Shown: positions 5,872 to 28,006 of the stretch, piece by piece | How positions within the stretch are numbered: the first letter of the stretch is position 1 | Layout of the letters: every line of letters begins with the position of its first letter | Source of the DNA: Glutamicibacter soli | GTDB taxonomy: Bacteria; Actinomycetota; Actinomycetes; Actinomycetales; Micrococcaceae | Direction: 5' to 3' | DNA length: 64,000 nucleotides | NCBI RefSeq assembly: GCF_003309065.1 | Contig: NZ_POAF01000002.1 | Coordinates: 496,001 to 560,000 of the forward strand | The notes under the pieces: model-generated | Databases searched by the model: none | What the model saw: the letters and a program-made list of their open reading frames with translations, nothing else | Told to the model about the DNA's origin: nothing | Made by a program: the position numbers and the translations under genes

Positions 5872-6048
5872 CCAGCATTCCCTTCGACGGTCAGGCTGAA
5901 CCTGAGTATTGGTTCGATTCGAAAGGGGTCGCATTCACGACGAACATCGCATGGGCCTGCACCGTGCACCGCACGGAACGCCCGGACGAAGGCTTCCGCC
6001 GAGCCGCAGCCGTATCGTACGGCAAGACCCAGCAGATCCAGGATCTTC
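5872..6048 (-). pseudogene. internal fragment of an AraC/GyrI regulator
   Basis: On the minus strand this encodes ILDLLGLAVRYGCGSAEAF, then VRAFRAVHGAGPCDVRR and PILRFSLTVEG, homologous to the middle of the gene at 3158-4039. Neither the N-terminal helices nor the effector domain is present. It abuts the serine recombinase remnant on one side and the direct repeat on the other. Confidence 0.75.
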
Positions 6049-6405
6049 TTGAGGCCGGCGCCACTCGTGGTGACCTCTACATCGACCACAGGCACCCGGG
6101 GCACTTGCGAAAGCTCCCGGACTGGATAAAGCGTTCCACGCTCTGTATCCGGATGATGCTCTCGTGACCACCACCCTGGATCAACTCGGGTACTCCACCC
6201 AGAAAATGCTCGAACTAGCCGAAGATCTACGCAAACGCAGCACCACCGGCGGCGACCTCGTCGGATACCGCCCTACCTTCATAGATTCACAAATCCGCAC
6301 CGCCGCAAAACCCATCCAATCCGGGAAACCAGCACCCCGAATCACCAAAGACATGGGAATGTCTGGCGCACGCTTTGCCACAGAATCAAAGAGCATCAGA
6401 CCTAA
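6046..6405 (+). pseudogene. serine recombinase (resolvase/invertase) remnant
   Basis: Plus-strand fragments in shifting frames match the resolvase fold in order: EAGATRGDLYIDH, a frameshift near 6090, then APGLDKAFHALYPDDALV and TTLDQLGYSTQKMLELAEDL. After an internal deletion comes a C-terminal helix-turn-helix-like end (DSQIRTAAKPIQSGKP, ITKDMGMSGARF). The N-terminal catalytic serine region is missing. This is the wreck of an invertase or transposon resolvase that may have helped shape the region. Confidence 0.75.
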
Positions 6406-6500
6406 ACGGCTCTTGCATTCACCATGCTTAGCAAACCGAACTTGTCGGCCATGAAACATATACTGCTACAAATAGCTTTAATGCATGATGGGGGTCATCA

Positions 6501-7049
6501 ATGGTTCATAAGGTACCTACTGCTCGAATTCGTTTCGATAAGGGATTCTGGGGTTCCTCTGGCAAGCTAGTACTCACTCTAGGGAAGAAAGAGTATCCGG
6601 TGCGAAAGATCAGCCGATCAGAGTACGAATACCTCCTTTCCCGCCAGATAGACCAGCCGAAAATTTTGGCGCGAGTCAGAGGAAAAAACTACTGGTTCTT
6701 CCAAAACACTATCTACGCCGATCTCGATGACCTCAAAGCCAGCCAAGTCTACGCAGTGATCAAGGCCGACCGCTTGCGACGACAGCGGAAAGTAGAGAAT
6801 TCGGTAGCACTTGAACACCTCAGGCATCAGCCAGTAGTACGTCGTGGGATCCCTGACGACGTCAAGCTACTGGTCTTGCATCGAGATCAAGGCCATTGCT
6901 GCCATTGCGGCTCAGAGTCCGACCTTCAATTTGACCACATCATCCCTCTCTCTCGCGGTGGAAGCAGCAATCCCGAAAACCTGCAGATCCTCTGCGGACC
7001 ATGCAACCGCGCAAAGGGCGCTAACGTCACCGTTCGACGTCTCGACTAG
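6501..7049 (+). CDS. HNH endonuclease
   Basis: 182 residues. The C-terminal HNH nuclease domain (about residues 117-175) has two cysteine pairs for structural zinc (C133/C136 and C165/C168), a DH pair at 145-146, and N157, N160 and N169. The first 100 residues are unassigned and basic. GGGGG lies 8 bases before the ATG. It is the first of three same-strand genes with short gaps (55 and 14 bases), next to a Mrr-type nuclease and a HhH protein, which suggests a role in attacking foreign or modified DNA. Role is inferred from context. Confidence 0.85.
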   Translation: MVHKVPTARIRFDKGFWGSSGKLVLTLGKKEYPVRKISRSEYEYLLSRQIDQPKILARVRGKNYWFFQNTIYADLDDLKASQVYAVIKADRLRRQRKVENSVALEHLRHQPVVRRGIPDDVKLLVLHRDQGHCCHCGSESDLQFDHIIPLSRGGSSNPENLQILCGPCNRAKGANVTVRRLD

Positions 7050-7104
7050 AAAAATTCGACCTAAACGCAACCGCTAGATAGTACCCGTGAAAGAAGAACA
7101 CATC

Positions 7105-8130
7105 ATGCAGGTATGGGGCCTCCATAACGACACCCTCACCACCGAACTGACTGAGGAGAACTTCGTCAGCCTCAGCTGGGACACCATTTCAGATCTCTCG
7201 CATATCCCGGGCGGTCGCGAAGGACTCAAAGCCGAGCTCGCCCGCATCATCCCCGAAGAACGCCGCAAAGCAATCCCCACCTGGGCTGGCATGCTCTTTC
7301 GATTCCGGGAGGAAATGCAGATCGGGGACATCGTTGTCGCGCCATACAAACCCGACAGCACCATTAACATCGGTATCATCAGCAGTGACTACTATTTCGA
7401 TTCCACAGCACCTACCCACCGGCACCGGCGCAAAGTGCAATGGAAGAAAATCGGTCTCTCCCGCACCGTTTTCACCCAACCAGCACTCTATGAAATTGGC
7501 TCAGCGCTGACGCTCTTCAAAGTCAGCAAGCACACGCACGAGTTCCTCGCCGCCCTCAAAACTCGCACCGAAGACATCGAAAAAGTCACCGCGGTCGTCG
7601 AACAAGCCGCAGCCCGCAACACCTCCGAGGACGAGGTTTCCGATGAACCCCGGGCATCCAGGATCGAACGCCATACCCGAGATTTCGTCCTTGAAGTACT
7701 TCAAGAGCGCATCACTCCACGCCAGTTCGAGGAGTTCAGCGCCGATCTTTTGCGGGCACTCGGGTACCAAGCACGGGTCACTGCCTATTCGCAGGACGGA
7801 GGGGTGGATGTCATCGCTCATAAAGACCCTCTCGGGGTCGAACCGCCACTGATCAAAGTCCAGTGCAAACGCATGACCGCCACGATTGGCGCTCCTGAAG
7901 TACAGCAACTCATCGGTGTCCAAGGTGCCGGCGAACTCGTAGTATTCATGACCCTAGGAACCTACAGCCGCGACGCTCTGGCGCTCGAACGTCAACGACC
8001 AGGACTGCGCTTGATCACTGGCGAGGACATTGTCTCCCTCGTTCTGGAACATTACGCAGCGCTTCCTGAACGGTGGCGAACCATCATGCCTCTGACGCCA
8101 CTGCTCGTCGTCGCCGACACTGCATCTTGA
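7105..8130 (+). CDS. Mrr-type restriction endonuclease with N-terminal PUA/EVE-like domain
   Basis: 341 residues from ATG 7105, which follows AAGAAG; the in-frame GTG 7087 is an alternative. Residues 1-145 (WGLHND, FVSLSWD, IGDIVVAPYK) resemble an EVE/PUA-type modified-base-reading domain. The C-terminal third holds a PD-(D/E)XK Mrr catalytic core: E210 in EEFSADLL, D235 in QDGGVDV and Q253-C-K255 in KVQCKR. All expected catalytic residues are present. Such enzymes usually cleave DNA carrying modified bases. The next gene starts 14 bases downstream. Confidence 0.85.
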   Translation: MQVWGLHNDTLTTELTEENFVSLSWDTISDLSHIPGGREGLKAELARIIPEERRKAIPTWAGMLFRFREEMQIGDIVVAPYKPDSTINIGIISSDYYFDSTAPTHRHRRKVQWKKIGLSRTVFTQPALYEIGSALTLFKVSKHTHEFLAALKTRTEDIEKVTAVVEQAAARNTSEDEVSDEPRASRIERHTRDFVLEVLQERITPRQFEEFSADLLRALGYQARVTAYSQDGGVDVIAHKDPLGVEPPLIKVQCKRMTATIGAPEVQQLIGVQGAGELVVFMTLGTYSRDALALERQRPGLRLITGEDIVSLVLEHYAALPERWRTIMPLTPLLVVADTAS

Positions 8131-12269: not shown

Positions 12270-12376
12270 CCGCAGTTCATAACGCGGCTCGGAGCTGCTC
12301 CATCGTTCCTGGCATTAGCACCTTTCGGTTTCCCGATGGTTGCTGCGACGTCGACGAGCCAGATCTCTTAGTCGCT
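12270..12376 (-). promoter_or_regulatory. SAM riboswitch (S-box / SAM-I-IV clan) upstream of metY-metB
   Basis: On the minus strand the leader carries the conserved core elements in order: AGAGATCTGGCTCGTCGACG, then GCAGCAACC (complement of 12338-12346), a short stem-loop, then GGTGCTAATGCC (complement of 12311-12322). This order and spacing are those of S-box RNAs in Actinobacteria. It lies about 115-220 bases before the metY ATG. Boundaries are approximate because I could not fold the 3' half. High SAM is expected to turn metY-metB off. Confidence 0.82.
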
Positions 12377-12532
12377 CTTGATGGGTAGGTAGTTCCATGG
12401 TTGGCCACCGGCGCCGCCAGGAGCAAGCGGTGGCGCGGCCAGCGCTTCATGCAGCGCTGCGGCCCGTCATATGTCGCGGTTTCGTCATGCTGGACCCTGC
12501 CCCGTACGGCCTTTGTGACGCGCTGAATGAGG

Positions 12533-16761: not shown

Positions 16762-18657
16762 TTAGGTCGTTGCCATTTTCATGACTCGATCTAAGATTTC
16801 TTGTAGCTGTGTTGGAGCTTCTGATGTCATACTTCGAGCGATCGTTCGGTAGATGGAACTATTCTTAGCAATAACTTCTCCAGTACTGGCTTCATGGGCG
16901 TCACATGCATCTTGCCATCCGGCCCACTCGTTCACTAGTAATGATTCAAGGTGGTCTTCGAAAATGGCAACAGTATCACCAACAACTTTGGAGGGCATAT
17001 CCACCTCAGGCAGATTGAAGTACCGCAAGGCTTCTCGATTCATTTTATAGTTGTTATTCACACTATCTCGAACTTTTGAAACCGCAAGGTCCTTCGAATT
17101 GAGTCGAGCTTCGAGGCCTGAATCTGCATCAAAAATCGAGTACGTAGGAATTCCAAGGCATGAAAGTATTGCGTGGGGAAGCGCAAGCCCCGTCTTGCTT
17201 TGAGCTGGTACAACCACGACACCAGAGGTTTCTAACTTCCCGATAGATTCGCGATCGGCAAGCCCTTCAAGTACGGCGCGTTCTGTAGTTCCTTCAACGA
17301 CTAAGGCCACGTTGGCGAAAATTGCTGAAGGTAATTGGCTACTGATCACACTTGCCAGTTGTCGCCTGGTCTGCTCATTCTTTGCCGGATTACCGATACG
17401 AACTTCGACATCGGCCACCGTGCATGAATGAACGGTAACGTTACGTTCCCCTCCCGTGGCACGCACCAAACGACGAACTTCATGGAAGTTCGCGCCATCA
17501 ATAAAATAAGGACTATGCGTCGCGTAAGCAACCTGAATATTCTTACCAGTGTCTTCAGCAAGATCGCGAAGTACCTTGGCGAAGGCCTGAGCCTGAATCG
17601 GATGTTGAAAAAGTTCAGGTTCTTCAATAGCTAAGAAAATGACACCCTTCTCAGAAGCTGCCCCTTCAGTCGCCAACATTTGAAGTGCCGAAATGAGAAT
17701 TGTCCTTTGAAACCCGTGGCCCTGACGATCAATAGTGGTTTCAATATCCCCATCTTGGATACTCACGCCAAAGGCGGTCTTTGCAGCCTTGAGTTCAACC
17801 TCCGATGGCGACACTTTGATCATCCGACCTGGACTATAGCTTCCTACAACCTCGTTGAGTCGGCGCGATACGTCTTCCAGTGGGTCTTTGAAGTGCTTTT
17901 CATATATTGATTGTTGGGTCTTGCGGCTAACTTCGATAAAGTTAGCGATTTCTTCATCTGCCGCCGTCCTGTCAATCGTTCGCTCGAGAATTCGGCCAAT
18001 GATACTTGTCTTAGCATCAGACGATTCTTCCGTCGCGCGAAGATCTGCTGTGATCAGTACATAGTCGAAAAGACCGCTCATCTTACTGGCGCTATTGAAC
18101 CCGAAAAAATCAGTTTGAAGCGTCTCGGGCGCATCTTCGAGTAAATCAGGATTTTCAGATTCGAACTGGCGAAGGTTAGCGTCAACGGCAGCGGTGCTGC
18201 CTACAGAAGAGAGACCAATCTCAGGATTTGCAGCTCTAAGAGTGTTATAAAGTGCCCGTTTCTCCGTTGCGCTGGAAGCATTGCGTATTTCGTTGAATGC
18301 GGGATACGACTTTGCGTTTGCTGATAGGTTCTCGCGGCCGTCGACAGAACGAGTCTTCCACGCAACGAATGTGGTTGCACCTTCAGGCACGTAAGATCCA
18401 AGCTCGGTTTTATCTTCGTCAGATAGTCCTGAGAATTGTACCTCTACACGAATTGGCTCGTTTGCGCATCCATTAGTAACGTCGTCATCTTCAAGCAGGG
18501 GGGTCTTTCCGATGGGCGCGAAAAACCAGTCCAGCGCCCGGAGCACGCTTGACTTACCCACGCCATTCGGTCCTACAAATGAAGTAATTGAGTTAAAATC
18601 AATTACTACATTCTTTAGGGAACGAAAATTATTAATCTTTACTTTAGAAATTCTCAA
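16762..18657 (-). CDS. OLD-family ATP-dependent endonuclease (AAA15 ATPase + TOPRIM)
   Basis: 631 residues starting at TTG 18657, with GAGG 6 bases upstream. The N-terminal ABC-type ATPase has Walker A GPNGVGKSS (K35), a signature region near residue 320 (GHGFQRTILISALQML) and Walker B FLAIEEPELF near 340-350. A C-terminal TOPRIM nuclease domain follows, with the acidic residues VVEGTTERAV (about 450) and FDADSG (about 508). OLD proteins act against phages, in class 2 together with a UvrD-like helicase (GajB). No helicase partner is adjacent, so this looks like a stand-alone class 1 protein. The gene is AT-richer than the flanking chromosome, a sign of transfer. Confidence 0.9.
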   Translation of the reverse strand: MRISKVKINNFRSLKNVVIDFNSITSFVGPNGVGKSSVLRALDWFFAPIGKTPLLEDDDVTNGCANEPIRVEVQFSGLSDEDKTELGSYVPEGATTFVAWKTRSVDGRENLSANAKSYPAFNEIRNASSATEKRALYNTLRAANPEIGLSSVGSTAAVDANLRQFESENPDLLEDAPETLQTDFFGFNSASKMSGLFDYVLITADLRATEESSDAKTSIIGRILERTIDRTAADEEIANFIEVSRKTQQSIYEKHFKDPLEDVSRRLNEVVGSYSPGRMIKVSPSEVELKAAKTAFGVSIQDGDIETTIDRQGHGFQRTILISALQMLATEGAASEKGVIFLAIEEPELFQHPIQAQAFAKVLRDLAEDTGKNIQVAYATHSPYFIDGANFHEVRRLVRATGGERNVTVHSCTVADVEVRIGNPAKNEQTRRQLASVISSQLPSAIFANVALVVEGTTERAVLEGLADRESIGKLETSGVVVVPAQSKTGLALPHAILSCLGIPTYSIFDADSGLEARLNSKDLAVSKVRDSVNNNYKMNREALRYFNLPEVDMPSKVVGDTVAIFEDHLESLLVNEWAGWQDACDAHEASTGEVIAKNSSIYRTIARSMTSEAPTQLQEILDRVMKMATT

Positions 18658-19352: not shown

Positions 19353-20411
19353 CTAAGCAGCGAGCATCTCTTCACCTTCCTCCTGCGTCACCGGTTCGTT
19401 GATCCACGCGGCCTCAGGCATCTGTAATTTCTTCGGCAGCCTGCGCTGCCCGAACCTTTCGGGATGCGCGTCCCACGCCTTCTGCAACGCCATCAGCCGC
19501 TGGTCCTCAACATGCCCAGTCATCCCGAAATGCACGTCCGCAGGCGTATGGAACCCGATCCCCGAATGCCGGTGATGACCGTTGTACGCCTTCACGAACC
19601 GGTCCATGAATTCCCGGGCATCGGCCAGCGAACCGAACCGCTCGGGGAACACCGGAAGATACTTCAAGGTCTTGAACCAGCTCTCCGAATACGGATTGTC
19701 GTTGCTGACCTTCGGCCGCGAATGCGATTTGAGCACGTCCAGATCCGCCAGCAACGCCGCCACCGGCTTCGAGGTCATCGACGTGCCACGGTCAGCATGG
19801 ACCACCTTGGGGATCTGGTCGGTGGCGAATACCTGCGCGATGAACTCACGCGCCAATTCCCCGGATTCACGGGCATGGACCTAGCAACCGACGATGTAGC
19901 GCGAATAGATATCGATCATCACGTACGCGTCAAAGTAGGTCCCCTTGGCCGGCCCAGCGAGTTTCGTGATGTCCCAGGTAAACACCTCTCCAGGCTGGTA
20001 CGCCACCAGTTCCGGGACCTTTCGGGCTGGATGCCGGGCCTGCCGGCGGCGTTCGGCCACCTGCTTCTCACGACGCAACAGCCGATACATGGCCGAGCCC
20101 GAGCCTAAATACGTTCCTTCAGACAGCAAGGTGGCGTAGATCTGCTCGGGTGCCTGGTCGATGAACCGCTCGCTGTTCAGCGTCTCCAAGATCAGGGCTT
20201 CCTCCTGCGCGGTGAGCTTGTTCGCCGGTGCCGGACGCGGCGCCGTGGACGCTGATTTCGGGGCCCGCGCGGCACGCTGGTGGCGGTGCATGGTCGCCCG
20301 GCTGACCTCGGACAGGGCGCTGGCCTGCCGGGTGGGTACCCCGCCGCCGAGCAGCTGCTGGTAGGTGTCGGTGAGCAGGCTGCGTACTTCTACTTGGAAT
20401 CCGCACTCTTT
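19353..20411 (-). pseudogene. IS3-family orfB (DDE integrase) with internal stop
   Basis: The DDE catalytic core is intact in sequence: TWDITKLAG, VHADRGTSMTS and NDNPYSESW. Translation runs to VGC, hits TAG at 19881-19883, then continues in the same frame (VHARESGELAREF). The usual residues here would be GWKVHAR, so the stop replaced sense codons. Upstream, the frame is open back to the orfA stop (ECGFQVEVRSLLTDTYQQ). Confidence 0.85.
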
Positions 20412-20783
20412 TCAGAATTGTTCCAAGAGCGCGTGTGCTTTTCCCATGATTTCCAGGGCGTTCTGCGTGGTGGCCAGCTTCTGTTCGCTGGCTGCGAGAT
20501 GCTTTTTCAGTCGGACGATTTCCGCTTGTTCCTTGCTCAGCCTGCCCGTCCTGGTCCCGGTGCTGCCGCTGGTGCTGGCGGGGTTGTTCCCGTCGAGGAT
20601 TCCCGAGTCGCGCAGCCTGCGCCACTCCACGAACTGCGAGGAATGCAACCCGTTGGCGCGCAGGTAGCCGCGGCCTTCGCCGGTTTGGATGGCTTGTTCG
20701 TAAGCGTGCAGGTAGGCGAGCTTCTGGGCCGGGGTGTTGGTGCGACGCTGCGGCTGGTCCGGGCGGGGCTGGGTGGAATCCAT
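20412..20783 (-). pseudogene. IS3-family orfA (HTH/leucine-zipper protein), 3' end altered
   Basis: Start chosen at ATG 20783 (MDSTQPRP), preceded by GGAG. It has the usual helix-turn-helix (LRANGLHSSQFVEWRRLRD) and zipper (SKEQAEIVRLKKHLAASEQK). It ends at TGA 20412-20414 after LEQF. In the neighbouring frame the bases directly beyond read SEKSADSK-stop, the normal end of such proteins, so about 2 bases appear lost near 20414. GAAAAGAG here is the likely -1 slippery site. As it stands, orfA and orfB share a frame separated by the stop. Confidence 0.7.
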
Positions 20784-20970
20784 GGTCCCATTCTCCGGCA
20801 TGGTCCCGGTGGCTGGGTGGATGGAGGCGATGCTCATGGTGGAGGTTGGTCCTGTTCTCGCCCTGTCTGGGGAGGGTGGTTTGCTATGAATCGGTGGTCT
20901 CACTCAACCCTGACAGACAGGGGCCTGACCGTCTCTTGGAAAAGTAACCACCGGTGTCCCTAAGCGTCCG

Positions 20971-22490
20971 AGCCTGTCAGGTTGATTGTGTAAGACCCCT
21001 AGTCAATTGATAAAAAGAGACTAGGAAAAACACGATATGACCATCCAGAAAGACCAGACCGAACAGAGCATGGAAAACGCCTCAGACATCGCCGAGAAAA
21101 TCGCAGCCCTCGGCTCCATGGACGCCGTCAAGGAATCCGGGGCGTTCGACGAACTCATGGGATTCATCGACCGCGGAGAAATCCAGCTCGACGGCAAAGA
21201 CGGAGAACATCGCAGCAGATCATCCCTGCCGGCCTGGAGCGCGGCCTGAAATCCGAGCTGAGCAGCCATCTGGGCTATGAAAAGGGCGAAAGCCACGGCC
21301 AGTTCCTGCCCAACTCCCGCAACGGCTCCTACCCGAAGACCGTGTCCACGATCGCCGGAGATATCGACCTGCAGATTCCCCGGGACCGGGCCGGAACCTT
21401 CGCCCCCACGCTGGTGCCCAAGGGCTCGCGCCGCACCGGCGGGCTGGATGAAATGATCATCTCCCTCTACGCCGGCGGCATGACCGTCCGGGATATCGCC
21501 TACCACCTGGAAACCACCGTCGGCACCCAGCTCTCCCACGACACGATCTCCAAGATCACCGACGAAGTGCTCGACGAGGCCGCGGCCTGGCAGGAACGCC
21601 CGTTGGAGGAGTTCTACCCGATCCTCTACTTGGATGCGCTGGTGGTCAAGGTCCGCGACGGCCACCAGGTGCTCAACAAGGCCGCGCATATGGCCATCGG
21701 CGTGACCGTGGAAGGCGTCAAGCATGTGCTGGGCCTGTGGGTCACGGAGAACGAGGGTGCGAAATACGCAGGCGCTGTGTCTGCGCCCAACTGGCCAACC
21801 GCGGCGTCAAAGACGTCCTGATTGCCTGCTGCGACGGGCTCACTGGCTTCCCGGAGGCGATTGAGGCGACGTGGTCGCGGGCGACCGTGCAGACCTGCGT
21901 GGTGCACCTGATCCGGGCGGCGAACCGGTTCGTGTCCTACGGTGACCGCAAAGCGGTCAGCGCGCAGTTAAAGAGCATCTACACGGCGCCGAGCATCGAA
22001 TCCGCAGCCAAGGCCCTGGATGATTTCGAAGCGTCCGAGTTGGGGCGGAAGTATCCGTCGGCGGTGGCGACGTGGCGCAACGCGTGGGAACGATTCACCC
22101 CGTTCTTGGAGTTCGACCCGGAGCTACGCAAGGTCATTTACACGACCAACGCGATTGAGTCGATGAACTACCAGTTGCGCAAGGTCACCAAGTCCCGGGG
22201 CCATTTCCCCTCCGACGCGGCGGCGGTGAAGATGCTGTGGCTGGCGATCTGCAATATCGAGGACAAGCGCGCCCGGGAGCGGTTCAAGGACGCGCAGAAG
22301 AAGGGCCGGACCCCGAGGGCCGGCGCCGGATCGCATCTGGTGGAAGGGGCCGGGACCAACGGCTGAAAGCAGGCGTTGCAGCAGTTGGCCATGGCGTACC
22401 CGGAGCGAATTGAACCGTATTTGAAGTAATTGTTAAGAGCCCTGAATAACGGAGGTGACTAGGGGCTTACACAAACTTCCTGACAGGCTC
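20971..22490 (+). mobile_element. IS256-family insertion sequence, inactivated
   Basis: Terminal inverted repeats GAGCCTGTCAGG at 20971 and CCTGACAGGCTC ending at 22490 extend inward with matching TGTGTAAG and CCCCTAGTCA blocks. The flanking 8-mers AAGCGTCC (20963-20970) and AAGCATCC (22491-22498) differ at one base and look like an aged target duplication, the size expected for IS256. One mutase-family transposase gene lies inside. Confidence 0.88.
21037..22428 (+). pseudogene. IS256-family transposase, multiple frameshifts
   Basis: Starts MTIQKDQTEQSMEN. It shifts frame near 21205 into IIPAGLERGLKSELSSHLGY, shifts again near 21765 (TENEGAKYA | LANRGVKDVLIACCDG), and meets a TGA at 22364-22366 where a TGG is expected, before the true end QLAMAYPERIEPYLK at 22426. 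The catalytic triad is readable in pieces: LDALVVKVRD, CCDGLTGFPEA and TTNAIESMNY. Confidence 0.9.
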
Positions 22491-22766: not shown

Positions 22767-23426
22767 ATGACAGCACTGACACCAGATGAGCAACTCATCA
22801 AGTCGCGCCATCGAGTGAGAACACACGGTGAGGTCTTCACCCCAAGGTCGATGGTCAAACAGATGCTTGACCTCGTAAAGACAGAGTTGGAAACTGGCCC
22901 CAACTTCGTAGACAAGACCTTCTTTGAGCCTGCCGCCGGTGATGGAAACTTCCTGGTTGCCATCCTCTGGCGGAAGCTCCACGCCATCGAAAAGCGCTAC
23001 CAGCCAGCCTTCTGGCAGACCGAAACGTTATTCGCGCTGGCTTCGATCTACGGCATCGAGCTTTTGAAAGACAATCACCAGGCAGCGCAAGACTCACTTC
23101 TAGACATTTTCGTTGAGTTCCACGAACGCGCTGGAAACTCCTGTGGTCCGCGCACGAACCTCTACCGTTCTGCAACCATGCTGATCGAGTGCAACATCCT
23201 CCAAGGCAACACCCTCACAGGACTCGACGCTGCTGGAGACGAGATTCAATTTTCGTGGTGGCACCGCGTGCTCAACGAACCGGGTATGGTCCACCGAGAA
23301 CCGTTCTCTCTTTCATCTTTGCGAAACTCATCTACTGGCAAAGGAATGTTCGATTTCGCGCTCTACGAATCTTACGAGGTCTGCCGCGTCGAGCATGTCT
23401 ACAAAGAAGTGAAGGCTAATGTCTAA
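22767..23426 (+). CDS. N6-adenine DNA methyltransferase-like subunit (motif X-I part)
   Basis: 219 residues, short for a DNA methyltransferase. It has motif X (EVFTPRSMVKQMLDLV, about 20-36), the SAM-binding motif I (FFEPAAGDGNFLVAIL, about 51-66) and ECNILQGNTLTGLD around 141-154. No catalytic NPPY/DPPY follows; the C-terminus is short. AGGA lies 5 bases before the ATG. Its stop overlaps the helicase gene start by 8 bases. It may supply SAM binding to a split methyltransferase whose NPPY part is the gene at 26718. Confidence 0.72.
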   Translation: MTALTPDEQLIKSRHRVRTHGEVFTPRSMVKQMLDLVKTELETGPNFVDKTFFEPAAGDGNFLVAILWRKLHAIEKRYQPAFWQTETLFALASIYGIELLKDNHQAAQDSLLDIFVEFHERAGNSCGPRTNLYRSATMLIECNILQGNTLTGLDAAGDEIQFSWWHRVLNEPGMVHREPFSLSSLRNSSTGKGMFDFALYESYEVCRVEHVYKEVKANV

Positions 23427-26400
23427 CCCGAAGATCAGCACTTTCCACGAGGTCACACCGTACGTCTACTCGTGGACGACACCAGATATTCCGAAGTATG
23501 CCGGCTGGGAGAAGATCGGATACACCGAACAATCCGGTGGCCCGGACGCCCGTATCGCTCAGCAGGCTTCCCAACTGTCGGTCCGCAAAGAAAAGTTGTG
23601 GGCGCTGCGGGCGTTCTTCCAGACTGAACGCGGCGGCCGCTTCACCGATAAGGACTTCCATGCCTACTTGAAGCAGCAGGGCATTGAGCGGGAATACAAC
23701 CCCGATGCCAAGCCAAAGCGCACCGAGTGGCATCACTTCGCCTACGCTCCGCGAACCTCCAAGGAATACTTCCTTCAGTTCGCCAGCCAGGATGAAGTCG
23801 ATATGCAGCGCGCGGGCACTGAGGACTACGCACTACGCCCCGAACAGGATGCTGCTGTTAAGCAGGCTCTGGAGGCGTTCACCTCTGGGCATGACGCGGT
23901 GCTGTGGAATGCCAAGCCGCGTTTCGGCAAGACGATAACGACCTATGATCTAATACGCAAGCTCGAAGCACGCAAGATCCTGATCGTAACCAACCGGCCT
24001 GCCATTGCCAACTCATGGTTCGATGATTTCACCCGCTTCATCGGACACCAGACTTCATATGTTTTTGTTTCCGAATCAGCATCGCTGGCGGGCCGCGAGA
24101 CGATGACCCGCGAGGAATGGCGAAAGTACTCAGTCCAGAATCAGGACGAGGACCCGCGCATCGTGGAGTTCCTGTCGCTGCAGGATCTCAAAGGTTCCCA
24201 GTACTTCGGGGGCCACCACAAGAAGTTGAAGCACATCGCCGAATTCGAGTGGGACCTGCTGGTGATCGACGAAGCCCACGAGGGTGTCGACACCACGAAA
24301 ACCGACATCGCGTTCGACAACATCAACCGCACCCAGACACTGCATCTGTCCGGCACACCGTTCAAGGCCCTGGCTTCTGGCAAGTTCAACCAGGAACAGA
24401 TCTTCAACTGGACCTACGAGGACGAGCAGACCGCTCGCGAAGAGTGGTCGGATGAGTCGCGGGACAATCCTTACGCATCTCTGCCGATGCTGAACATGTA
24501 CACGTACCAGATTTCGCGGATGATCACCGACCGTCTGGCTCAGGGTGTGGCGCTCTCTGAGGACGAAGCCAACATTGACTATGCCTTCGACCTCAATGAG
24601 TTCTTCACGACCAAGGACAACGGCGTTTTTGAGCACCGCGAGGACATCCTCAAGTTCCTAGATTGCCTGACACAGAATGAGAAGTACCCGTTCTCCACGC
24701 CTGAACTACGCGAAGAAATCAGGCACTCTTTCTGGCTGCTGGACCGTGTCGCTTCGGCCAAGGCGCTCGAAAAGCTGCTGAAGCAACACGAGGTGTTCAA
24801 GGACTACACGATCATTCTCGCCGCTGGCGACGGCAAAAGCCATGACAGCATGGACGTGGCTGCTTCCGAGAAGTCGTTGGACCGAGTGCGCACGGCAATT
24901 GCTGAGGCTGAGAAGAACGGCGGCAAGACCATCACGCTGTCGGTCGGTCAGCTGACCACCGGTGTCACCGTGCCAGAGTGGACTGCCGTACTGATGCTGT
25001 CGAATCTGTCCTCGCCAGCTCTGTACATGCAGGCAGCGTTCCGCGCCCAGAACCCTCACACTTTCATGCGGGGCGAGCACGTGCTGCAGAAGAAGAACGC
25101 CTACATCTTCGACTTCGCGCCAGAACGCACCCTCAGTATCTTCGATGACTTCGCCAATAACCTACGCTCCAACCCATCGGGCAACCATCTGGTACGCCAG
25201 GACAACATCCGCCGCTTGCTGAACTTCTTCCCAGTCATCGGTGAGGACTCTGAGGGCAAAATGGTGGAGCTTGACGCCGCCCAGGTGCTCACGATTCCGC
25301 GGGTGTTCAAGGCCAAAGAAGTCGTGCGACGTGGGTTCCTCTCCAACCTGCTGTTCGATAATGTGGCCGGCATCTTCCGTTACTCGGAACATGTGAAAAA
25401 GATTCTTGAGAAGCTTCCCGAAGCCAAGGAAGGAAAGCTCAAGAGCGGCACTAAGATCTCCCTTGACGAGCCAGTTCCAGTGACCGACTTTGAAGGCAAT
25501 GTCCAGATTGATGTTGAGACCGTCATCAATCCTAAGATTGCTGAGCTCGGCGCTCCTGTCTGGAGCAAGGAAGAAGTTCCTGCCTTCAACCCAGGAAAGC
25601 CGGCCACAAAGTTGGCCAAAGAACTGGCCGGCTTCGTCACTGAGAAGACTCGTGAGACTCGCGAGAAACTTAAGGAAGAATACGGTCTGACCAGTGCCCA
25701 GGTCGACCGCGACATCAAGCGCACTGAAGCTGAGGTGGAGGCTGCTGTTGAGCGTGCCATTGTCGAAAGAAACATTGCTGAGAAGCACCTCGAAGACGAG
25801 CGGGAGAAAGCCACCACGGACGAAGAAGTGGCAACTGTCAAGGAAAAGAAGGTCGAAAATGATTCTGTGTTTGAGGCAGAACTCATGGCCATTCTGAAAA
25901 AATCTTCCGAGGAAGTAGCAACGGAAACCGTCACTCGTGAAGAGACCAAGAAGGAACAGAACCGGGCCAACGCCACGATGGACGATGCTCGTTCCCACCT
26001 GCGCGGTTTTGCACGCACCATCCCTCTGTTCTTGATGGCATATGGGCACGAGGACATGCGCCTAGCAAACTTCGATGTCCACACCCCAGATGATATCTTC
26101 CAGGAGATCACCGGTATCAGCGAATCCGAGTTCCGCATCCTCCGCGACGGCCAGGAAGTAGTCGAGGAAGACGGGCAGGTAGTCCAGATCCCTGGGTTCT
26201 TCGATGAGGCTGTATTCGATCAGTCAATCCAGGAGTTCCTTGCAAAGAAGGCCGAACTCGCTGATTACTTTGACGACTCGCTAACCGAGAACATCTTTGC
26301 CTACATTCCACGGCAGAAGTCGTCGCTGGTCTTCACCCCTCAACCTGTGGTGAACCAGATGGTTGACCTGCTTGAGAAGGAGAATCCTGAAATCTTCGAG

Positions 26401-26721
26401 GACCCAACGAAGACCTTTGCGGACCTCTTCTCCACAGCAGGACTGTTCCTGATGGAACTGGTGCGTCGCCTCGACACCGGGTTGGCAGTCAAGATCCCCG
26501 ACCAGCAGCAACGACTCAGGCACATTCTCACCAAGCAGCTGTTCGAGATGAGCCATAACCAGATCCTCCATGACATCACCGTTGAAGCTGTCTCTGGCGG
26601 CATTGGAAAACGAAAACAGTGGATGGAGGACTCTGGGCACTACCAAGTCGGCAACCTAGCAACAATGACCTCAGACGAACGCAAGACCCTTGTCAACGAC
26701 ATGCTTCAGGAAGGCAAATGA
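23419..26721 (+). CDS. large restriction protein: GIY-YIG/T5orf172-like domain, SF2 helicase, methyltransferase N-part
   Basis: 1100 residues. Residues 13-90 (YVYSWTTPDIPKYAGWEKIG, then DARIAQQA) resemble a T5orf172-type GIY-YIG nuclease domain. A superfamily 2 helicase core follows: Walker A NAKPRFGKT (164-172), DEAH 284-287, SGTP 311-314 and a C-terminal RecA-like part around 470-560. A long charged coiled-coil (about 730-850) leads to a C-terminal methyltransferase start, FTPQPVVNQMVDLLEKENPE (about 972) and DLFSTAGLFLMELVRRL, where motif I is degenerate. It probably translocates and cuts unmodified DNA. It is coupled by overlaps to the genes on both sides. Confidence 0.78.
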   Translation: MSNPKISTFHEVTPYVYSWTTPDIPKYAGWEKIGYTEQSGGPDARIAQQASQLSVRKEKLWALRAFFQTERGGRFTDKDFHAYLKQQGIEREYNPDAKPKRTEWHHFAYAPRTSKEYFLQFASQDEVDMQRAGTEDYALRPEQDAAVKQALEAFTSGHDAVLWNAKPRFGKTITTYDLIRKLEARKILIVTNRPAIANSWFDDFTRFIGHQTSYVFVSESASLAGRETMTREEWRKYSVQNQDEDPRIVEFLSLQDLKGSQYFGGHHKKLKHIAEFEWDLLVIDEAHEGVDTTKTDIAFDNINRTQTLHLSGTPFKALASGKFNQEQIFNWTYEDEQTAREEWSDESRDNPYASLPMLNMYTYQISRMITDRLAQGVALSEDEANIDYAFDLNEFFTTKDNGVFEHREDILKFLDCLTQNEKYPFSTPELREEIRHSFWLLDRVASAKALEKLLKQHEVFKDYTIILAAGDGKSHDSMDVAASEKSLDRVRTAIAEAEKNGGKTITLSVGQLTTGVTVPEWTAVLMLSNLSSPALYMQAAFRAQNPHTFMRGEHVLQKKNAYIFDFAPERTLSIFDDFANNLRSNPSGNHLVRQDNIRRLLNFFPVIGEDSEGKMVELDAAQVLTIPRVFKAKEVVRRGFLSNLLFDNVAGIFRYSEHVKKILEKLPEAKEGKLKSGTKISLDEPVPVTDFEGNVQIDVETVINPKIAELGAPVWSKEEVPAFNPGKPATKLAKELAGFVTEKTRETREKLKEEYGLTSAQVDRDIKRTEAEVEAAVERAIVERNIAEKHLEDEREKATTDEEVATVKEKKVENDSVFEAELMAILKKSSEEVATETVTREETKKEQNRANATMDDARSHLRGFARTIPLFLMAYGHEDMRLANFDVHTPDDIFQEITGISESEFRILRDGQEVVEEDGQVVQIPGFFDEAVFDQSIQEFLAKKAELADYFDDSLTENIFAYIPRQKSSLVFTPQPVVNQMVDLLEKENPEIFEDPTKTFADLFSTAGLFLMELVRRLDTGLAVKIPDQQQRLRHILTKQLFEMSHNQILHDITVEAVSGGIGKRKQWMEDSGHYQVGNLATMTSDERKTLVNDMLQEGK

Positions 26722-27761
26722 ACATGGAAAAGAAGTTCGATGTTGTTATCGGGAACCCTCCATATCAAAAGGAAGCGACGGGCGATGCAACTCATGCAAT
26801 GCCCATCTACCATAAGTTCATGGAAGCCGCCTACGAAGTTGGCTCCAAAGCTGTACTGATCACTCCTGCCCGGTTTCTGTTCGATGCGGGGTACACACCC
26901 AAAGCATGGAATGAGACCATGTTGAGTGACAGGCATCTGAGCGTTCCTTATTACGAGCCCAACAGCAATGACCTGTTCCCTGGCACTGACATCAAGGGTG
27001 GAATTGCTGTGACGTACCGTGACGAAAAGCGCGACGGAGAGCCCATTGGAACCTTCACCAAGTACCCGGAACTTAATGAGATCCTGCACAAAGTCATGTC
27101 GCAAGACCATTCGTCTTTGATTGAAGCAGGTATTTCTAGCGGACGCTCGTATCGCTATACCGACGTGATGCATGCGGATAACCCTCAAGCTGCTGCGGTA
27201 CTCTCATCTGGCCATCAGTATGTAATAGGTACTCATGCTTTCCAGCGCACGCCGTTCTTGTTTCATGATGGGATTCCGAACGACGGCAAAAAATACTCCG
27301 TCGTATTGGGTCTCGACGGAAAGAAACGTGCACGTCGTTGGGTGTGCAGTGATTACATTTCGGGCCCAGATGCTCTAGACAAGTTCAAAGTAGCAGTGAC
27401 TGCCGCAAATGGCTCTGGACAACTTGGAGAAGCACTTTCAAGTCCTCTGGTAGTCGAGCCTAACGTCGCGGTGACTCAAACCTTCCTAACGATTGGCTCT
27501 TTCAGCAATGAAACTGAGGCAAACGATTGCCTTAAGTATGTAAAATCAAAATTTGCCAGGGTCATGCTTGGTGTATTGAAAGTAACTCAGCACAACCCTG
27601 CTAAAGTCTGGAAATACGTTCCACTTCAGGACTTTACTGGGAAGTCAGACATCGACTGGTCTAAGTCAATCCCAGAGATTGACGAGCAGCTGTACAAAAA
27701 GTACGGACTCAGCGCTTCGGAAATCGATTTCATCGAGTCCAATGTCAAAGCTATGGATTGA
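26718..27761 (+). CDS. Eco57I-like DNA methyltransferase (NPPY part and specificity region)
   Basis: 347 residues from ATG 26718, which overlaps the helicase stop as ATGA and has AGGAAGG upstream; ATG 26724 is the alternative. Motif IV NPPY occurs at residues 13-16 (FDVVIGNPPYQKE), followed by PIYHKFMEAAYEVGSKAVLI, ITPARFLFDAG and FPGTDIKGGIAVTYRD, characteristic of the Eco57I methylase family. SAM-binding motifs are missing and must come from the preceding protein(s). The C-terminal half is probably the target-recognition region. It protects the host site in the restriction operon. Confidence 0.82.
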   Translation: MNMEKKFDVVIGNPPYQKEATGDATHAMPIYHKFMEAAYEVGSKAVLITPARFLFDAGYTPKAWNETMLSDRHLSVPYYEPNSNDLFPGTDIKGGIAVTYRDEKRDGEPIGTFTKYPELNEILHKVMSQDHSSLIEAGISSGRSYRYTDVMHADNPQAAAVLSSGHQYVIGTHAFQRTPFLFHDGIPNDGKKYSVVLGLDGKKRARRWVCSDYISGPDALDKFKVAVTAANGSGQLGEALSSPLVVEPNVAVTQTFLTIGSFSNETEANDCLKYVKSKFARVMLGVLKVTQHNPAKVWKYVPLQDFTGKSDIDWSKSIPEIDEQLYKKYGLSASEIDFIESNVKAMD

Positions 27762-27772
27762 GCTCTGCCATC

Positions 27773-28006
27773 ATGGTCGAAACTGATTCAAGTGCCATGA
27801 ATGAGATCGCCCAGCAGGTCCGTGCAGCACGCACGGGCTTGGGGCTGTCCCAGGGTCTCCTTGCTTCCAGGGCGGGCGTATCCCGCCCGTCCGTAGCCCG
27901 CCTGGAGGCCGGCGAAGATGTCAGCACCGATACACTGAGCAAGATTTCAGAAGTGTTGGGGTTGAAACTTACCCTTGCTGAGGTGCAGCTAGAGGACGAC
28001 CAGTAG
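27773..28006 (+). CDS. XRE-family HTH regulator of the restriction operon
   Basis: About 77 residues from ATG 27773; the frame is open from TTG 27758 and ATG 27797 is also possible. A single Cro/C1 helix-turn-helix covers most of it (VRAARTGLGLSQGLLASRAG, SRPSVARLEAG). It starts 11 bases after the methyltransferase stop, as the last gene of the unit. By position it is the likely controller balancing methylation and restriction, though operon-terminal antitoxin-like XRE proteins are also common. Confidence 0.82.
   Translation: MVETDSSAMNEIAQQVRAARTGLGLSQGLLASRAGVSRPSVARLEAGEDVSTDTLSKISEVLGLKLTLAEVQLEDDQ

Follow-up and report, generated by a model that had tools for sequence, protein, structure and literature searches.

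A DrdVI-type split-methylase restriction-modification operon of Glutamicibacter soli in another gene permutation

Introduction

The closest described relative of the operon considered here is the restriction-modification (R-M) system DrdVI, which New England Biolabs (NEB) cloned as M1, M2, and a translocase-nuclease and which the relevant passage of PMC6430315 gives as Type IIG, with the motif GCAGCC and N6-methyladenine (m6A) as the modification. The operon lies in Glutamicibacter soli, in a 64,000-nucleotide stretch of contig NZ_POAF01000002.1 (assembly GCF_003309065.1, positions 496,001 to 560,000), referred to below as the window, and consists of three overlapping genes, g1, g2, and g3, spanning 22767-27761 on the forward strand. 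Judged by its sequence, it belongs to the DrdVI-type "split methylase" systems, with its parts arranged differently; the operon looks intact and conserved and is a DrdVI variant, not a new type. It probably encodes an intact, ATP-driven R-M system of the DrdVI kind in which the three proteins act as one complex, g1 standing for M1 and the C-terminal end of g2 (g2C) together with g3 for the body of M2.

Several other systems bear a partial likeness to it. MaeIV of Methanococcus aeolicus (M1-M2.MaeIV), which we set beside the window by description and not by sequence, has two methyltransferase (MTase) genes cloned together and m6A at GCACY, according to the available part of its description; the m6A motifs of MaeIV and DrdVI (for the latter, in the cited passage of PMC6430315) were assigned to the cloned M1 and M2 genes jointly. 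The section of PMC4996451 on the DrdVI type speaks of "a fused translocase and REase" (restriction endonuclease), and it reports Bibersteinia trehalosi Btr188ORF1790/ORF1760, in which ORF1760 is GIY-YIG and DrdVI-like, but as fragmented and inactive, in an order unlike that of the window. The Type ISP enzymes LlaGI and LlaBIII also have an N-terminal nuclease, a motor, and a C-terminal gamma-class MTase with one target-recognition domain, in this order, but they are single chains with an Mrr-like nuclease and, in the part of PMC3874165 that treats them, with no extra half-MTase. MmeI and other Type IIG gamma-MTases differ in being one chain with a PD-ExK nuclease, and the window's permutation is not among the many that the corresponding part of PMC4752239 describes for Type IIG-like systems. 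DrdVI-type systems turned up in several bacterial groups, yet the papers that we found give names, motifs, and short remarks only.

Results and discussion

The three proteins match those of DrdVI

A search of plasmids with the g1 protein found pDrdVI of Deinococcus wulumuqiensis NEB 479, which carries counterparts of the three genes and, according to its PLSDB gene table (incomplete by its own description), no further MTase. The DrdVI gene names were assigned on this plasmid from the gene order together with the section of PMC4996451 cited above. All three operon proteins have counterparts there. g1 matched the first plasmid gene (Table 1), and g2 matched the motor protein with 30.9% identity over 747 columns (E 2e-81), GIY-type strings being present in both. 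The remaining parts fall on M2.DrdVI: residues 958-1049 of g2 on M2 residues 17-114 (33.7% identity, E 7e-14), and g3 on M2 residues 202-535 (30.3% identity, E 2e-39), all by BLASTP. When the g2C profile was compared with the N-halves of DrdVI-type M2 in hhalign, the match reached 99.3% (E 4e-20).

In DrdVI terms, M1 is g1, M2 is g2C plus g3, and the motor-nuclease is the rest of g2, so the M1 piece, the M2 content, and the nuclease-translocase fusion are all present in the window. The layout differs. DrdVI has the order M1, complete M2, motor, and its proteins share only 30-40% identity with those of the window, in which the N-half of M2 sits at the end of the motor protein and g3 is a separate gene behind it. 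Since M2 is thus shared by g2, at its end, and g3, where the prototype has one gene, the locus is a variant and does not simply repeat the prototype order; the parts of the cited papers that treat DrdVI do not state gene order as a defining feature. The first-pass annotation, made from the sequence alone, had suggested a distinct restriction subtype; the distinct order stood, whereas the match of all three proteins to the named DrdVI spoke against the rest. We found no named system with exactly the window order, only this named relative with another.

PADLOC scans of the window and DrdVI proteins matched no three-gene system model. The models that were matched describe single proteins and are labelled Type IIG or II: PDLC03626 (REase_MTase_IIG, 1359 amino acids), by the g2 motor and, separately, by g3, and PDLC03375 (MTase_II, 348 amino acids), by g3 end to end and also by M2.DrdVI. 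The single-chain Eco57I/MmeI plan of Type IIG does not describe the locus either, the MTase pieces being on three chains with a DEAH motor present.

Methyltransferase motifs are divided over three overlapping genes

The overlap is 8 nucleotides at the g1/g2 junction and 4 nucleotides (ATGA) at the g2/g3 junction. Because of the latter, we set the start of g3 at ATG 26718 (347 amino acids) and not at GTG 26619, the start given in the mechanical list of open reading frames (ORFs).

g1 has motif X (GEVFTP) and motif I (FFEPAAGDGNFL), the signature of S-adenosylmethionine (SAM) binding, and FSWW in the place of NPPY. F..W is invariant at this place across the 45 aligned g1 rows, 22 residues are invariant in the alignment, and NPPY was found in none of the 94 g1 proteins examined. 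Pfam profiles gave weak matches to g1 (MmeI_Mtase/N6_Mtase, below the cut-off), and identity to the window copy was 52.7-72.6% in 23 window-type loci. In the AlphaFold2 model of the window protein, g1 is a compact half-fold of its own, with the pseudo motif IV as an extra strand which, plus the next strand, lies at the place needed by the strand of g3. Next to its motor (AKPRFGKT, DEAH), g2 carries the second, degenerate X-I block (SLVFTP, FADLFSTAGLFL), in which motif X retains FTP and motif I its leading Asp. In g3, only 12 residues precede NPPY, and motifs X-I-II-III are therefore absent from it; NPPY occurs in 95 of 97 g3 proteins, the exceptions being locus L152, with NPPF, and locus L058, cut within the motif.

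This anatomy had been read from the sequence by the first-pass annotation, and each element of it held: motifs X and I without NPPY in the first gene, a GIY-YIG-like domain, a DEAH motor, and a degenerate X-I block in the second, NPPY and a recognition region with no SAM site in the third, start-stop overlaps at both junctions, and an XRE gene behind. The profile searches that it had proposed for each protein agreed (Table 1), g1 giving the weak matches just described.

Table 1. Features of the operon and its flanking XRE-like gene in the window
Feature	Positions	Strand	Remarks
g1 (M1-like), N-half of gamma-class adenine-MTase, 219 amino acids	22767..23426	+	39.9% identity to first pDrdVI gene, E 4e-37
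g1 motif X (GEVFTP)	22827-22844	+	
g1 motif I (FFEPAAGDGNFL)	22920-22955	+	
g1 motif II (acidic, YGIELL)	23043-23075	+	
g1 motif III	23193-23222	+	
g1 pseudo motif IV (EIQFSWWHRV)	23241-23270	+	
g2, GIY-YIG-like nuclease - superfamily 2 (SF2) DEAH motor - coupler-like region - second X-I MTase half, 1100 amino acids	23419..26721	+	
GIY-YIG-like nuclease domain of g2, residues 5-121	23431..23781	+	profile range; motifs YVYSW, KIGYT, DARI, FH..L, TEW
Motor domain of g2, residues 135-649	23821..25365	+	ResIII E=2e-16; profile range
AKPRFGKT motif of g2 motor	within 23911-23940	+	
DEAH motif of g2 motor	within 24262-24285	+	
Coupler-like middle region of g2, residues 651-930	25369..26208	+	profile range; putative function, from position
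g2C, second X-I half-MTase at g2 end, residues 955-1063	26281..26607	+	profile and BLASTP matches
g2C motif X (SLVFTP)	26323-26340	+	
g2C altered motif I (FADLFSTAGLFL)	26416-26451	+	
g3, NPPY catalytic half and target-recognition region, 347 amino acids	26718..27761	+	Eco57I E=4e-17
g3 NPPY motif (FDVVIGNPPY)	26736-26765	+	NPPY = residues 13-16
XRE-like helix-turn-helix (HTH) gene, possible controller	27773..28006	+	HTH_3 E=2e-12

The same parts recur in several orders and fusions

Dozens of other genomes and contigs contain these parts again, which is beyond chance. The motor protein had a match in 14 of 296 genomes of the phylum and 14 of 198 of the order (its own genome counted, and some matches not of the window type); one scan of an 84,980-species collection gave 24 loci, and 83 plasmid records matched. 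The motor was present in 97 of 107 loci examined (10 had none in the stretch available), and of these 97, g1 was found in 94 and g3 in all, in accordance with the view of the first-pass annotation that an adenine-MTase is divided around a helicase-nuclease with g1 as a real, conserved part; leaving out seven loci fetched via g1 itself, the count for g1 was 87 of 90. These loci are not independent, as L038 and L067 have identical motors and the viral contigs L127/L128/L130 and L140/L141 agree exactly or almost exactly in coordinates and scores. Among the loci without g1, L104 begins within the MTase, at the end of its contig, and the 4.5-kb contig of L143 opens with the fused gene. The short genome-search fragments L001-L024 and L068-L090, as well as L048, L097, L099, L144 (on the contig of L067), and the weak matches numbered above L157, were left out of the architecture count. 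Systems of the DrdVI type occurred in Actinomycetota, Lactobacillales, another member of the Bacillota, Alphaproteobacteria, Deinococcus, plasmids, and viral contigs.

With C denoting the second X-I half, the window order (g1 / motor+C / g3) was found in 24 loci, counting the window and the Lactiplantibacillus plasmid L052; two more loci come near it, L028 with a broken motor frame and L045 with g1 and the motor in one fusion. The order g1 / C+g3 / motor was seen in 41 loci, g1 / g3 / motor+C in 6, g1 / motor+C+g3 in 3, and g1+g3 / motor+C in 2, with the remaining arrangements rarer. Natural fusions join g1 to g2 in 1 locus, g2 to g3 in 14, and g1 to g3 in 4 (2 with a broken g3). Since every pair is fused somewhere, Rosetta-stone reasoning points to a single complex. 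Neither these pairwise fusions nor two separate old X-I lineages were found in the literature searched.

For the motif counts, the loci were grouped into window-type (A, 25, with L052 moved to B), DrdVI-type (D, 45), C-type (12), B-type (4), and others (E, 11). The GIY-YIG identity of the window-type nuclease is well supported by homology and motifs. By our own two-string pattern, both GIY-type strings were present in 25/25 window-type, 4/4 B-type, 12/12 C-type, and 37/45 DrdVI-type proteins, pDrdVI included. The T5orf172 profile, presumably a GIY-YIG-type domain by clan membership, scored above the Pfam cut-off in four of the seven related motor proteins scanned (L101, L055, L139, and L096). 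In group E, to which L091, L094, L098, L143, L145, L046, and L047 belong, several motors have about 160-200 extra N-terminal residues and may, from their sequence, carry another nuclease in place of GIY-YIG; the C half was undetected in these seven loci.

Many of the DrdVI-type loci L100-L136 lie in contigs catalogued as viral (phage-, prophage-, or plasmid-borne R-M). Extra g3-like genes stand next to a motor+g3 fusion in L155 (6185-8082) and L148 (10927-11973) and are possibly spare recognition specificities.

Two N-terminal halves per system look ancestral

The two X-I halves are related to each other, g1 matching DrdVI-type M2 N-halves at 97.9% and window-type C at 94.3% in hhalign. For a tree, 181 half-domains were thinned at 80% identity to 93 rows, and 57 g1 separated in it from 36 C at 100/100; the two L155 rows are very long, and the tool gave a long-branch warning for them. 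Where g1+g3 fusions are intact, it is g1 that has been joined to g3, and C stays on the motor. This, together with the split in the tree, makes the two halves look like old, separate lineages, both ancestral to the system.

Their signatures are distinct. Motif I of g1 reads E-P-x-x-G-x-G in 25/25 window-type and 43/43 DrdVI-type proteins, and E-I-T-C-G-E-A, not GxG, in half of the 12 C-type and half of the 4 B-type proteins; the motif II acid is present in 94/94. In C, the first Gly of motif I is replaced by Thr in 25/25 window-type proteins and by Lys in 62/62 others, and the place of the motif II acid, with column equivalence to g1 judged by eye, holds Ser or Asn in the window type and mostly Ala or Gly elsewhere.

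The stretch that links the X-I half to NPPY in DrdVI-type M2 (L101 M2, 5968-7641, and its alignment) contains cysteines that are invariant or nearly so; they may form a zinc site, which the window type does not show. Q-x-S-[LI]-F peptides occur between g1 and g3 in L042, L055, L057, L070, and L139; we take them to resemble a sliding-clamp-binding motif, and they may be mere linker.

A proposed mechanism and its alternatives

We propose that g1, g2, and g3 are co-translated and form one complex, active in the window copy. In it, g2 would bring the motor, the nuclease, and the C half, and g3 would dock on C, rebuilding an M2-like recognition and catalytic body in trans. g1 would join as M1, needed for modification, most likely through its intact SAM signature; in our preferred view, the degenerate g2C:g3 body depends on it as its SAM-competent partner. 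The complex would place m6A on one strand of an asymmetric site. Methylated sites would be spared, and at unmethylated ones ATP-driven translocation would lead to cutting by the GIY-YIG domain.

Several points weigh against this proposal. A strict need for g1 would follow from naming and genomics, with a motif known for M1 and M2 jointly. The pseudo-beta4 strand in the g1 model makes a route from its SAM to the NPPY of g3 hard to see, and g2C, to judge from its FTP and leading Asp, may still bind SAM. L136, in which upstream DNA is present, has C+g3 and the motor and no g1, and is a true exception. As to the nuclease, T5orf172 fell below the Pfam cut-off in window g2, in L093 (pDrdVI itself), and in L051 and L091; one or both GIY-type strings were missing in 8/45 DrdVI-type N-termini, and none of the 9 scored group-E N-termini matched the pattern.

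Quite possibly, though we lean the other way, g2C:g3 is itself a fully competent MTase whose SAM site is unusual, with KSG or STAG in the place of GxG, and g1 serves as a pseudo-MTase with a structural or allosteric role, comparable to a second M subunit. Within each group, the altered motif I shows little or no variation and is not drifting, which suggests function; FTP and the leading Asp are kept, a DrdVI-type M2 came out as an entire MTase in modelling, and g1, with its invariant F..W for NPPY in 45 rows, has a compact half-fold. On the other hand, the Gly and the motif II acid have both been lost from C in all groups, and an allosteric g1 would have no need of a full SAM signature. We consider it doubtful that the halves are exchanged, with g1 pairing with g3 as the active MTase and a SAM-dead g2C competing for or docking g3 and tying it to the motor, so that modification and restriction would be separate states. 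L055 and L139 (and the broken-frame L042 and L057) do have g1+g3 fused in the order X-I-II-III-NPPY while g2 keeps its own X-I half, g1 retains the SAM signature and motif II acid that g2C has lost, and the two halves separate fully in the tree; yet the g1 model fills the strand place of g3 with the pseudo motif IV and the following strand, a DrdVI-type M2 is modelled as complete by itself, and half of the C-type and B-type g1 proteins lack GxG. That the MTase is assembled from three exchangeable pieces, g3 with a competing SAM-competent g1 and SAM-dead g2C, so that swapping the N-half switches between marking and cutting, is likewise unlikely; were it true, each natural fusion, g1+g3 or g2C+g3, would hold one or the other half in cis.

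It is improbable that the locus is a Type ISP system that has been split. Type ISP enzymes are driven by ATP to translocate and to cut between head-to-head sites, and motor motifs are present in g2, but the single nuclease-motor-MTase-TRD (target-recognition domain) polypeptide is replaced by three genes, the N-terminus of g2 bears GIY-YIG-type motifs and not an Mrr-like (PD-QXK) nuclease, an extra M1 half is present, and phmmer with g2 retrieved no PDB chain at E 0.01, though structures of LlaGI and LlaBIII exist. It is very hard to believe that g1 is a decayed remnant in a dead or two-gene operon. It is only half an MTase with weak Pfam matches, but its presence in nearly all motor loci, its conserved sequence with 22 invariant residues, and its being the counterpart of the named M1.DrdVI gene argue against decay, and the truncated remnant, absent from homologous operons, that the first-pass annotation had allowed for is excluded by the window order in 23 other loci.

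The interest of the proposed DrdVI-type complex lies in the permutation and in the pair of N-halves. An X-I half on the motor physically links marking to cutting and offers a natural test of how the enzyme chooses between them, and a conserved pair of N-halves, one with the SAM signature and without the catalytic motif, the other the reverse, poses a clear biochemical question.

Genomic setting and neighboring genes

The G+C content of the operon is about 0.51-0.58; it is about 0.58-0.65 in the DNA immediately before the operon and past 30 kb, and lower still at 16-19 kb. The operon directly follows a transposase gene, which, together with the lower G+C, is in keeping with acquisition. This gene, of the Mutator family (21342-22366, forward strand), extends over two overlapping ORFs just upstream of g1 and looks frame-broken. 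On the reverse strand, ORFs at 19353-20903 look by eye like an IS3-type transposase pair, and an OLD-family ATPase/nuclease-like gene at 16762-18657 (PADLOC "Old", E 7e-56; G+C of the stretch about 0.45-0.50) is likely a second defence gene near the operon.

The XRE-like gene behind g3 ends at 28006 and starts at TTG 27758 or, more likely, at ATG 27773. Among the loci searched for it, a relative stood directly after g3 only in L028 and L030, and the gene is outside the conserved core of the system. Farther upstream, a SAM riboswitch was detected at 12297-12387 on the reverse strand (57.8 bits).
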